Positions 7,144-11,090 of a DNA stretch of 64,000 nucleotides are shown piece after piece. Where the stretch lies: NCBI RefSeq assembly GCF_900110215.1, contig NZ_FOCX01000004.1, positions 186,001-250,000 of the forward strand, given 5' to 3'. The position numbers and the translations under genes were made by a program. Under the pieces are notes generated by a model. The model saw only the letters and a list, made by a program, of their open reading frames with translations, ran no database searches and was not told where the DNA came from. The DNA is from Halorientalis persicus. GTDB lineage: Archaea > Halobacteriota > Halobacteria > Halobacteriales > Haloarculaceae. Position 1 is the first letter of the stretch; every line of letters begins with the position of its first letter.

Positions 7144-7398
7144 ACATCCGATGCATAGGAGGGTGTTGTCTTAACTTTGGGTGGTGGTTGTGACACTCTC
7201 CCGCGCCGACGAACGCCTCGGAAACCGCCACGGACCGCCAGTCCGGTCGCTACCGGAACGGCTTGCCGATACGTCGGCACCGCGATGTGCCGGATCGCAG
7301 TCACCGATCGTCGTGCGCGTCTTCTCACACTGCTGTCACGGGAACGCCGGGGGCGACACCGACATAGCCTTTTGCCGGTGGCGGCCCTACGCCGGGCT

Positions 7399-8097
7399 AT
7401 GGCACGTACTGCCGTCGTCGCTGGTGTTGGGCCCGGACTCGGCGAGTCGATCGCCCGACGATTCGCCGACGAGGGCTGTCAGGTCGCCCTGTTCGCCCGC
7501 TCGAAGTCGTATCTGGACGATCTCGCGGCCGAGCTGGACGAGACCGCCGGCGCTGGGCTCGCGGTCCCGACCGATCTGACCGACCCGGACGCCATCGCCG
7601 CCGGGTTCGCGGCCGTTCGCGATGCCTTCGGCCCCGTCGACATCCTCGTCAACCACGCCAGTGCCGCCTCGTGGGATGGCCTCACCGATATCGCCGCCGA
7701 GTCGTTCGACCGCGCGCTCGCCGTCGGACCGAAAGCCGCGCTCCACTGCTCGCAGGAAGCCGTCGGGGATATGCTGGACGGTGAGGGCGGTACGGTGATC
7801 TTCACCGGCGCGACCACCTCCGTCCGGGGTCGGGAGGGCGCGGTCGGGTTCTCCGCCGCGAAGTTCGCCTGTCGCGGAATGGCCGAGTCGATGGCCCGCG
7901 AACTCGGCCCCGAGGGCGTCCACGTCGCCCACGTCGTCCTCGACGGGATGATCCGACCGCCCGACGGCGAGGTCGAGAACGACGCGGACTACCTCGACCC
8001 CGACGCCATCGCCGACAGCTACTGGCACCTGATCGAGCAGGACCGCGGTGCGTGGACGCTGGAGCTCGATTTGCGACCGCACACCGAGAACTTCTGA
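7399..8097 (+). CDS. SDR-family protein lacking the catalytic tyrosine
   Basis: A 232-residue short-chain dehydrogenase/reductase fold. The cofactor loop is AGVGPGLG (8-15), the NNAG equivalent is VNHAS (84-88) and the strand-5 TGATTS motif is present (136-141). The usual Tyr-x3-Lys is FSAAK, so Phe151 replaces the catalytic tyrosine while Lys155 remains. I recall bacterial relatives of this branch with F/A at the same place, so it may be a subfamily trait; NAD(P) binding is likely but ordinary carbonyl reduction is doubtful. The start at MARTAVVAG removes a long upstream in-frame extension that lacks family character. Confidence 0.8.
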   Translation: MARTAVVAGVGPGLGESIARRFADEGCQVALFARSKSYLDDLAAELDETAGAGLAVPTDLTDPDAIAAGFAAVRDAFGPVDILVNHASAASWDGLTDIAAESFDRALAVGPKAALHCSQEAVGDMLDGEGGTVIFTGATTSVRGREGAVGFSAAKFACRGMAESMARELGPEGVHVAHVVLDGMIRPPDGEVENDADYLDPDAIADSYWHLIEQDRGAWTLELDLRPHTENF

Positions 8098-8100
8098 GGG

Positions 8101-9720
8101 TCAGCGATTCCGGCCGAGTTCCTCGTGGCTGGTCACCCAGTCCGAGGCCGAGATGGCCGAGGCCAGCGAGAGTTCGCCCGCCAGCACCACGCCGGCGGCG
8201 ATCTCGGCGAACTTGTTGACGTTGCCCGCGCCGTCACAGTCCAGCATTTCTAGGGCCTCGTTCTGGGTCGGCAGACCCGTCCCGCCGCCGTAGGTCGCGA
8301 CGATGAGTGAGGGAATGGTGACCGAGACGTGGACCGAGTTGTCTTCGAGCAACGTGGCGTTGACCAGCGCCGCCGACGACTCGGCGACGTTGGCCTCGTC
8401 CTGTCCGGTGGCGATGTACAGCGCCGCCAGCCCGTTGGCCGGGTGCGCACCGTTGGTGTTGGCCCCCGCCAGCATCGACCCGAGGTTGGCGACCTCGCCG
8501 TGGTGGACCAGACTCTCCGGATCGGCTCCGAGGTGGTGCGTGAACACCTCTTCGGGGATGGTGGCCTCCGCAGTCACCCGCTTGCCGCGGGTCATCATGT
8601 CGTTGACCTGGGAGTGTTTCTTGTCCGTCGCGAAGTTTCCCTCCAGATAGAAGTTCTCGACGTAGCCGGGGAACTCGCTGAGGATCCAGTTACAGGCCGC
8701 GAAGGTGGCCTTTCCGACCATGTTCTGGCCGGCGGCGTCCCCGGTCTTGAAGTCGAACCGGAGGAACGCGAGGTTGTTGGTGAGATAGTCCTCGATCTCG
8801 ACCAGTTCGGCGACGCTGGAGGTCTCTTCGGCTTTCTCCCTGACGGTGTCGTAGTGGTCGAACACCCAGTCCCGGAAGTCACGGGCGGTGCGGGCGTCCT
8901 CGAAGACGAACACGGGCGCGCGGTTCATCCGGTCGTCGACCACGGTGGCTTTGACGCCGCCGCTGAGGTTCAGCGCCTTCATCCCGCGGCTGTAGGAGGC
9001 GACGAGGGTTCCTTCGGTGGTGGCCAGCGGGATCGGGTACTCGCCGTCTGCGTGTTCGCCGTTCACCTTGAGCGGGCCAGCCAGCCCCATCGGCATCTGG
9101 GCGACGCCGACGAAGTTCTCGATGTTGCCTTCCAGTTCCTGGGGATCGACGGAGTACTCCGCGATGTGTTCGATGTCGGTGTCGGTCCGCTCGGCGAGAT
9201 ACTCGTGGCGCTCGTCGATAGCGGCCTCGCTGTAGTTGTCGGCTTCGTCCCTGGGGACGCTCGGCACCGTCTCCTCGTCGCGAATGGTGTCGGTGACCGA
9301 CAGCGACAGTGAGCCGAACGGATGGGCCACGAAGTCGATCTCGATGTCGTGGTCGCCGGTCGGGAGTTCCAGCTCCGCGACGGTGACGTACACCGTCCGT
9401 CCCACCGGGAACCCCAGCGGGTCGTCCTCGTCGACCTCGGTGAGCCCGTAGGTTTCTCCCTCCGAGGTTTCGAGGGTCACGTCGCTGGGCATGACCTCGT
9501 CGCCGTTGATCTCCAGCCGTTCGAGGCCGCCGAATTCGGCGTCTTGCAACCTGTTTTTCACCTCGAAGCGAACGCCGTCGTCGGTGTTCGTCAGACTCCC
9601 GTACGTGTAGAGCCGTTTCAGCACCTTCTCGGGCACGTCGAGCGAGACGACGCCGCTCCCGCCGACGAGGTTCGCGTAGAGCCTGTTCAGTATACCGCTG
9701 TCTGGCTTCGGGACGACCAT
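8101..9720 (-). CDS. HMG-CoA reductase homologue with N-terminal beta-domain
   Basis: A 539-residue protein. Residues 180-539 match class I HMG-CoA reductase: ENFVGVAQMPMGLAGPL (201-217), the catalytic glutamate in TTEG (Glu236), DAAGQNMV (328-335), the catalytic lysine in TDKK (365-368), the catalytic aspartate in GQDEANV (Asp441) and a histidine in VTSHEELGRN (His532) aligned with the catalytic SH of the family. The reaction would be reduction of HMG-CoA to mevalonate for archaeal isoprenoid lipids. Residues 1-150 are not part of HMGR and look like a beta-sandwich similar to DUF6379/C-glycoside deglycosidase beta subunits (my recollection of that family's pattern). A usual haloarchaeal HMGR is about 400 residues. 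Start at 9720 is chosen from the TATA box spacing. Confidence 0.78.
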   Translation of the reverse strand: MVVPKPDSGILNRLYANLVGGSGVVSLDVPEKVLKRLYTYGSLTNTDDGVRFEVKNRLQDAEFGGLERLEINGDEVMPSDVTLETSEGETYGLTEVDEDDPLGFPVGRTVYVTVAELELPTGDHDIEIDFVAHPFGSLSLSVTDTIRDEETVPSVPRDEADNYSEAAIDERHEYLAERTDTDIEHIAEYSVDPQELEGNIENFVGVAQMPMGLAGPLKVNGEHADGEYPIPLATTEGTLVASYSRGMKALNLSGGVKATVVDDRMNRAPVFVFEDARTARDFRDWVFDHYDTVREKAEETSSVAELVEIEDYLTNNLAFLRFDFKTGDAAGQNMVGKATFAACNWILSEFPGYVENFYLEGNFATDKKHSQVNDMMTRGKRVTAEATIPEEVFTHHLGADPESLVHHGEVANLGSMLAGANTNGAHPANGLAALYIATGQDEANVAESSAALVNATLLEDNSVHVSVTIPSLIVATYGGGTGLPTQNEALEMLDCDGAGNVNKFAEIAAGVVLAGELSLASAISASDWVTSHEELGRNR

Positions 9721-9905: not shown

Positions 9906-11042
9906 TCAGGTCTCCAGTCGATCGAGCACGGCGTCGGCGTCGTAGTTCAGCGTCAACTCCCGCGAGCGGCCGCGGCCGTCCACGTCGGTGTAGGTGGCGT
10001 CGATGATCCCGAGCTGGTCGAGTTTGTTGATGATCTCGGAGTAGCGGGTGTAGCCCAGGTCGGTCCGCTCGTGGAAGGTCTCGTAGACTTCGCCGGCCTG
10101 CTCGCCGGAGTGTTCGGCGATCACGGCGACGAGGGCCGCTTCGCTGTCCGAGAGGCCACGGAGCGCTCGCGAGAGGTGGACGAACTTGGACTTGTCGTAG
10201 GCCTCCTCGACGTCCGCGACGCTGACCTCCTTGGCGGCGCGCATCTCGGCGTTGAGCCCGGCCCGCCGGAGCAGGTCGATCCCGACCCGCAGGTCGCCGT
10301 TGGACTCGGCGGTGAGTTCGGCCACCCGGTCCAGCACCGTCGGCGAGATCATGTCGTCGTGAAAGCCCCGGTCGACCCGCTCGCGCAGGATGTCGACGAT
10401 CTCGGCCTCGCCGTACTTCGGGAAGTACACCTCCTCGGGCCGGAACACCGACTGGACGCGGCCGTCGAGTTCCTCGATCACGTCCAGATCGAGGTCCGAG
10501 GAGATACAGATGACGCCGATCTTCGCACCGGCGTGTTCCTCGTGGGCGCGAAGCAGGGAATAGAGCGTGTCCGAGGCCTCGTTCTCGTAGAAGAGGTAGT
10601 TCACGTCGTCCAGGGCCACCACGAGGACTTCCTCGTCGTCGACCAGCCGGTCGGTCACCTGCTCGAACAGCCGCTTGAAGGAGATGCCCGAGGATGGCGG
10701 CTCGTAGTCGAAGATGCCCTCGAAGAGTCTGGAAAAGACCGAATAACGGGTGCCGTTGACCTGGCAGTTGACACGGACTGCCCGCACGTCCGTGGTTTCT
10801 GCCCGCAACTCGGTGAACAGCTTCTGGATCGCCGTCGTCTTCCCCGTTCCGGGCGGGCCGCGGGCGACGACGTTCAGCGGTCGCGAGCCCCGGACCGCCG
10901 GCCGGAGCGCGTACTTCAGGCTCTCCATCTGCGAATCGCGGTGGTGGAACGTCTCGGGCAGGTAGTCGATTTCGAAGACGTGTTCGTCCCGGAACACCGA
11001 CTCGTCCCACGAGAGCATCCCCTCCTCGGGGTCGTCGGTCAT
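9906..11042 (-). CDS. orc: Orc1/Cdc6 replication initiator
   Basis: A 378-residue AAA+ initiator that would bind origin repeats and load the MCM helicase. Walker A GPPGTGKT (62-69), Walker B LVVALDD (140-146), a sensor region ICISSDLDL (near 180) and a C-terminal winged helix (about 290-375, with YTRYSEIINKLDQLGII) are present. The ATG at 11042 is preferred; a GTG nine bases upstream is possible. Haloarchaea carry many orc paralogues and I cannot say which this is. Unlike origin-linked copies, it has no recognisable ORB repeats in the 185-base downstream gap or in the 48 bases upstream, so it may act at an origin elsewhere. Confidence 0.9.
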   Translation of the reverse strand: MTDDPEEGMLSWDESVFRDEHVFEIDYLPETFHHRDSQMESLKYALRPAVRGSRPLNVVARGPPGTGKTTAIQKLFTELRAETTDVRAVRVNCQVNGTRYSVFSRLFEGIFDYEPPSSGISFKRLFEQVTDRLVDDEEVLVVALDDVNYLFYENEASDTLYSLLRAHEEHAGAKIGVICISSDLDLDVIEELDGRVQSVFRPEEVYFPKYGEAEIVDILRERVDRGFHDDMISPTVLDRVAELTAESNGDLRVGIDLLRRAGLNAEMRAAKEVSVADVEEAYDKSKFVHLSRALRGLSDSEAALVAVIAEHSGEQAGEVYETFHERTDLGYTRYSEIINKLDQLGIIDATYTDVDGRGRSRELTLNYDADAVLDRLET

Positions 11043-11090
11043 CACTTTCACCAGGCTCCCCGTCGCACTTAGTGTTTCGCCAGCCTTCGC

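Follow-up and report, generated by a model that had tools for sequence, protein, structure and literature searches.

What is the function of a second, longer homologue of HMG-CoA reductase (HMGR) in an archaeon that already possesses an ordinary one? The question is raised by the 4.87-Mb draft genome of Halorientalis, in which an earlier reading made from the letters alone (the sequence-only reading) had surmised two HMGRs; an ordinary HMGR of 403 amino acids is indeed encoded on another contig. The longer homologue lies in a window of 64 kb, by which we mean the whole stretch of DNA that was analysed. Our findings indicate that it is very probably FcrA, a predicted fatty acyl-CoA reductase evolved from class-I HMGR. 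FcrA has been described as an HMGR-derived fatty acyl-CoA reductase which occurs in Halobacteriales as a second HMGR-like copy with an N-terminal Lad domain, a domain present in certain FcrA only (Grossi et al., ISME J 2025; PMC11948995). The gene and the parts of its product are as follows.

8101-9720, minus strand: fcrA-type gene for a predicted fatty acyl-CoA reductase of 539 amino acids, stop codon included
9625-9720, minus strand: residues 1-32, N-terminal segment with a predicted helix at residues 9-20, low confidence (pLDDT below 50)
9280-9624, minus strand: residues 33-147, PF25653 or Lad domain, with the beta-sandwich fold of C-glycoside deglycosidase (CGD) beta subunits (CGDB, DUF6379)
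9229-9279, minus strand: residues 148-164, inter-domain linker
8104-9228, minus strand: residues 165-539, catalytic domain of the class-I HMGR type (PF00368; VIA Z 33.5 to 6hr8_A)

The open reading frame comprises 539 codons and a stop. An alternative in-frame ATG upstream would lengthen it to 9792, but the start at 9720 is preferred, since the beginning MV[IV]PxPDSG is common to 13 other aligned fused genes. Purifying selection acts on the gene as a whole (dN/dS 0.065-0.246 in all nine pairs), with values of 0.043-0.354 for the N-domain alone. The adjacent genes are not related to it: an SDR gene in convergent orientation (7285-8097, plus strand; Pfam adh_short) ends 3 bases away, and upstream lies a P-loop ATPase frame (9906-11051, minus strand), putatively of the Orc1/Cdc6 type as judged by reading. 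No lipid genes adjoin fcrA within the 64-kb window. A conserved fcrA operon was rejected, the neighbours of the 14 fused loci varying by genus and the shared ones being mostly intra-genus; a phasin gene upstream of fcrA in genome G025 was not supported either (Phasin E 0.11). PF25653 occurs in 15 of the 391 genomes of the class, 13 of them with a fused gene, and genome G015 additionally has a fused gene; an ordinary HMGR accompanies it in all 14 genomes that have one. An fcrA match is absent from G001 and G006, and G007, a close relative, carries a broken copy (L121, G007:C55:1-4000) in the form of two open fragments in different frames. The function of fcrA is therefore an accessory one.

The order of domains, a beta-domain ahead of an HMGR catalytic domain, had been recognised in the sequence-only reading, and Pfam places PF25653 ('HMG-CoA_red_N') at residues 33-147 (E 4.3e-39) and PF00368 at residues 167-537 (E 3.5e-125). 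The accompanying statement that the N-terminal part belongs to no familiar HMGR is outdated, since the domain is covered by that Pfam family and was given the name Lad in 2025 (PMC11948995). In a model of the full-length protein, the catalytic part compares with HMGR (Z 33.5) and the segment from residue 32 to 148 with the CGD beta subunit (Z 13.8). The model is mediocre (pLDDT 72.5, with residues 362-370 below 50), and what we say of the pocket is therefore based on sequence. The relevant positions, all assigned by alignment and with numbering as in PMC11948995, are these.

9013-9015, minus strand: catalytic Glu236 (human Glu559)
8620-8622, minus strand: catalytic Lys367 (human Lys691)
8398-8400, minus strand: catalytic Asp441 (human Asp767)
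8125-8127, minus strand: catalytic His532 (human His866)
8641-8643, minus strand: Glu360, replacing the HMG-binding Ser684
8488-8490, minus strand: Ala411, replacing the HMG-carboxylate-binding Lys735
8137-8139, minus strand: Trp528, replacing Leu862

These positions were compared in 74 HMGR-type sequences of more than 300 amino acids, 6 shorter ones out of 80 having been dropped. The catalytic set named in the sequence-only reading (Glu236, Lys367/368, Asp441, His532) proved correct throughout by alignment, and Glu236, Lys367, Asp441 and His532 are kept in all 15 fused sequences. The equivalents of Arg590, Lys692 and Asn755 are retained as well. The window protein thus shares the fold and the catalytic Glu, Lys, Asp and His of class-I HMGR (PF00368; TIGR00533), but it differs by the replacement of Ser684, Lys735 and Leu862, by its extra N-terminal beta-domain and by its place in a separate clade. 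Among the 15 fused sequences the Ser684 position is occupied by Glu (12) or Asp (3), the Lys735 position never by Lys but by a small residue, and the Leu862 position always by Trp. Ser684, Lys735 and Leu862 are intact in every one of the 50 archaeal HMGRs of the ordinary kind. The same Ser, Lys and Leu are found in the three Streptomyces HMGRs of the L086 type (L086, L117 and L118), of which L086 is annotated in a mevalonate gene cluster together with mevalonate kinase, diphosphomevalonate decarboxylase and HMG-CoA synthase, the records of L117 and L118 being without informative annotation. Ala411 adjoins a one-residue deletion, so that the residue paired with Lys735 is 410 or 411 according to the alignment program. 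Lys735 forms a salt bridge to the carboxylate of HMG (PMC9500038). The haloarchaeon G010 has two HMGRs (L106 and L110), both with the ordinary Ser/Lys/Leu pocket.

Could the protein nevertheless be an additional HMG-CoA reductase isozyme under regulation, one that serves isoprenoid or carotenoid production and has the N-domain as its regulatory module? The intact catalytic residues, the retained Arg590, Lys692 and Asn755 equivalents and the Pfam and NCBI names, which read HMG-CoA reductase, speak for this possibility. We consider it most improbable, since the residues that hold the HMG carboxylate are missing from all 15 fused sequences, the protein scores 335 bits against the TIGR00533 cut-off of 442, the fused set forms a clade separate from ordinary HMGR, and the published homologue does not reduce HMG-CoA (PMC11948995). 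The separate clade was obtained in a main tree of 46 of the 74 rows, from which 28 archaeal rows were left out. The fused set formed one clade (97/93) with an Alteromonas homologue beside it (100/99), separated from the ordinary haloarchaeal and other archaeal HMGRs at 97/95; a long-branch warning applies to Alteromonas, Sinorhizobium and Streptomyces NBC_01435. A recent duplication of the haloarchaeal HMGR was rejected by an AU test on 30 rows, in which forcing the fused and haloarchaeal HMGRs together cost 118 log units (p ~1e-98). The tree holds no sequence labelled FcrA in print, and membership in FcrA rests on residues, domains and genome G134.

The published FcrA of N. pharaonis has Glu236, Lys367, Asp441 and His532, with Glu360 for Ser684, Trp528 for Leu862, and Gly411 in place of a lysine printed as 'Lys795', which we read as Lys735 (PMC11948995). 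The window protein agrees with it in domain order, in its length of 539 amino acids and in the numbered residues, namely Glu236, Glu360, Lys367, a small residue at 411, Asp441, Trp528 and His532. Genome G134, which we take to be N. pharaonis, partly from the residue pattern itself, shows exactly the published residues. Since domains and residues match, we regard the window gene as a further member of the known FcrA kind, with the same domain order, the same catalytic residues under the same numbers and the same pocket replacements, present likewise as a second copy beside an ordinary HMGR in the same haloarchaeal host family (PMC11948995). The kind of enzyme is thus already known, and the window gene adds a member from Halorientalis, a genus which the main text of that paper names only in its reference list. 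An acyl-CoA reductase activity is assigned here by analogy, as it has been shown in print for one bacterial homologue, Pb-FcrA: fatty alcohol was made in E. coli, and the enzyme used NADPH with acyl-CoA of at least C14, left HMG-CoA unreduced and was insensitive to simvastatin (PMC11948995). The changed pocket in 15 of 15 sequences, the separate clade and this homologue all speak in favour of a substrate other than HMG-CoA, one of the two functions offered by the sequence-only reading; the other, a controlled isozyme for lipid or carotenoid output, found no support.

As an FcrA, the catalytic domain would convert a long-chain acyl-CoA to a fatty alcohol and CoA in two NADPH steps, the reduction being carried out by the HMGR catalytic set of Glu236, Lys367, Asp441 and His532. 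The loss of the Lys and Ser that hold the HMG carboxylate, and the gain of an acidic residue and a Trp, would shut the site to HMG-CoA, and the same changes would open it to an alkyl chain. The Lad domain probably holds this chain or passes it on, and in Halorientalis the alcohol may end up in a wax ester, an ether lipid or another ester. Archaeal membranes are isoprenoid, and the FcrA reading directs attention to archaeal neutral lipids that derive from fatty acids. The database name HMG-CoA reductase would mislead models of haloarchaeal isoprenoid metabolism.

What, then, is the Lad domain? The resemblance to DUF6379 proposed from the letters held up, with PF19906 matches, a profile search of the PDB and Foldseek all in agreement. 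When scanned singly, 18 of 21 aligned family members matched PF19906 (CGDB), with a best E of 5e-6; the window protein itself gives E 0.016 and 15.5 bits, below the curated cut-off of 27.6 bits. A PF19906 search of 57 genomes of the family returned a single match (E 1.3e-5), the N-domain of the fused gene of G022, which scores 26.8 bits against the same cut-off. A search of PDB sequences with a profile of the 21 domains put three CGD beta (DgpB/DUF6379) chains at the top (9m3b_B, E 9.1e-5; 8umc_B, 0.068; 8qvc_B, 0.071), the next match being unrelated at E 1.2. With an AlphaFold2 model of residues 1-150 (pLDDT 72.6, residues 1-33 below 50), all 17 Foldseek matches in the PDB at E 0.001 or better were C-glycoside deglycosidases, and VIA-align superposed 112 residues at 2.6 A with Z 12.9, the best protein of any other kind reaching Z 9.2. 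In this comparison, the CGD beta subunits came out on top and not the N-domain of ordinary HMGR. The possibility that we are dealing with that usual N-domain was accordingly rejected, the matches listed for residues 1-150 being CGD beta subunits and other beta-sandwiches.

Lad is thus homologous to the CGD beta subunit (PF19906; DgpB, CarC) and folds like it, with a common beta-sandwich and a weak but specific sequence similarity. There is a precedent for N-terminal fusion among the CGDs, in the single chain of 8qrz/8un2, with the domain at residues 6-138. In contrast to the CGD subunit, Lad is here fused to a reductase rather than paired with a xylose-isomerase-like barrel, and it falls below the PF19906 cut-off; no such barrel was noticed among the adjacent genes that were read. 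The FcrA paper calls Lad undescribed, and its main text contains no words starting with glycosid, deglycos or DUF and does not mention the DUF6379 relation (PMC11948995); the kinship is an addition to the published account of FcrA. The CGD beta subunit contributes to the binding of the aromatic aglycone at the subunit interface (PMC12141560), and from this role and the kinship we infer a shared module for hydrophobic ligands. The solved CGD-beta structures offer templates for testing the alkyl-carrier idea.

The same role in aglycone binding (PMC12141560) lends itself to another explanation, in which the protein is an FcrA-lineage acyl-thioester reductase whose substrate, other than the common C14-C18 acyl-CoA, is chosen by the N-domain; the acyl group might be hydroxy, branched, aromatic or carrier-bound. 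This would fit with the Streptomyces NBC_01435 relative, whose gene adjoins one for a GH3-type acyl-adenylating enzyme, with a very divergent Sinorhizobium relative beside acyl-CoA carboxylase genes, and with the lack of WS/DGAT in Halorientalis. The halophile clade is, however, compact and has its Trp/Glu pocket and its domain in common with the wax-ester maker N. pharaonis, and we hold this explanation to be very unlikely. The pocket is changed in the bacterial relatives too, which show Asp, no Lys and Phe (two Vibrio and one Photobacterium), Glu, no Lys and Phe (Streptomyces NBC_01435), Ala and so no acidic residue, no Lys and Trp (Alteromonas), or Phe, no Lys and Phe (the very divergent Sinorhizobium relative). 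The Ala of Alteromonas counts against the FcrA reading, as do the missing strong WS/DGAT match in the five fcrA-bearing Halorientalis genomes and the missing lipid gene beside fcrA in the window.

As to the surroundings of these genes, the FcrA-like gene of Streptomyces NBC_01435 (L085:1194-5316) directly follows those of the GH3-type enzyme and a DUF6182 protein. The Sinorhizobium medicae homologue (L084:5013-6257; pocket Phe, Cys, DKR) is on a plasmid, where it is surrounded by genes for acyl-CoA carboxylase and indolepyruvate ferredoxin oxidoreductase. The Alteromonas macleodii 'plasmid' pBGP9 (L016, NZ_OX359244.1 64002-95216) has the usually chromosomal rpsI, rplM, relA, recO and xerD around its FcrA-like gene; an AMP-binding enzyme, an iron redox enzyme and an SDR in the neighbourhood were set aside as a possible pathway, the HMGR-like gene being separated from them by two genes.

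If FcrA makes fatty alcohol in Halorientalis, which enzyme could esterify it? N. pharaonis makes wax esters by a pathway of FcrA and WS/DGAT. A strong WS/DGAT (PF03007) match was found in 9 of 9 genomes with fcrA outside Halorientalis, and in none of the five fcrA-bearing Halorientalis genomes, four of which have only weak matches near 1e-5. No WS/DGAT (PF03007 with PF06974, or TIGR02946) is recognisable in the window genome, which differs in this from the published case (PMC11948995). It has two weak PF03007 matches (E 1.1e-5 and 1.6e-5), the first scoring 40.7 bits against the TIGR02946 cut-off of 310. The main one is a protein of 437 amino acids with the motif NHxxxDG, whose nearest Pfam family is Condensation (1e-12), followed by WS_DGAT_cat and PapA_C. 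In the PDB, the profile of its family picks out condensation domains together with a PapA-type transferase. Two genes of this kind are of interest.

C51:154370-155677, on a contig other than that of fcrA: acyltransferase of 437 amino acids of the Condensation/PapA/WS-DGAT superfamily, window genome
L042:8409-9770, plus strand: Condensation/PapA-like acyltransferase of genome G004, back to back with fcrA

Searched by itself, the acyltransferase was found in 15 of the 391 class genomes (in one, G406, weakly). The carriers are all five fcrA-bearing Halorientalis genomes, G007 with its broken fcrA, G006 with two tandem copies and no fcrA, four of the eight other fcrA genomes in the sample (five with G406), and also G371, G056 and G400. 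Its co-occurrence with fcrA gives a Fisher value of 3e-12, or 3e-6 without Halorientalis, with the genomes treated as independent, which they are not. In G004 (L042), fcrA starts at 8161 (minus strand) and the acyltransferase at 8409 (plus strand), and a gene for an SCP2-like lipid-transfer protein (match below cut-off) follows fcrA. We hypothesize that this acyltransferase may be the ester synthase partner of FcrA in place of WS/DGAT. Against such a role, the two genes are on different contigs in the window genome, the back-to-back linkage was seen in one examined genome only, and the first motif residue is neither Asn nor His in most other members of the family. The Halorientalis case, with FcrA, no recognisable WS/DGAT and a candidate acyltransferase, allows the idea of a second archaeal ester synthase to be put to a direct test.

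The Lad domain also occurs on its own, in a protein of about 285 amino acids present in 9 of the 15 PF25653 genomes (among 391), 7 of which also have the fused gene.

L044-L050, for example L049:7970-8827: stand-alone Lad/PF25653 protein with a winged-helix-like C-terminus

The C-terminus gives TrmB and MarR Pfam matches below cut-off, and helix-turn-helix proteins are prominent in its PDB list, each of them weak (best regulator E 0.019; top match a methyltransferase, 0.0046). A metallo-beta-lactamase-fold gene adjoins the stand-alone gene in five of seven loci, and in G400 the stand-alone gene and one of the acyl-CoA-synthetase type stand back to back. Strong WS/DGAT matches are found in 8 of the 9 genomes with the stand-alone protein, against 11 of 391 overall (Fisher 1e-13, the genomes again being counted as independent, which they are not). 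The protein may thus be a regulator tied to neutral-lipid metabolism. It is tempting to speculate, though the odds are rather against it, that the beta-domain moves between proteins as a module for hydrophobic ligands and serves the CGDs, FcrA and an acyl- or alkyl-sensing winged-helix protein controlling neutral-lipid genes, and that Halorientalis makes fatty-alcohol esters by a condensation/PapA-like acyltransferase replacing WS/DGAT. The link between Lad and CGD-beta, the stand-alone Lad protein and the Halorientalis FcrA without WS/DGAT are additions to what the main text of the FcrA paper reports (PMC11948995). Genome G015 likewise has both the stand-alone Lad protein and the fused gene, and beside its ordinary and fused HMGRs it encodes a third homologue (L120:6468-7781), which is divergent from class I and looks like class II.
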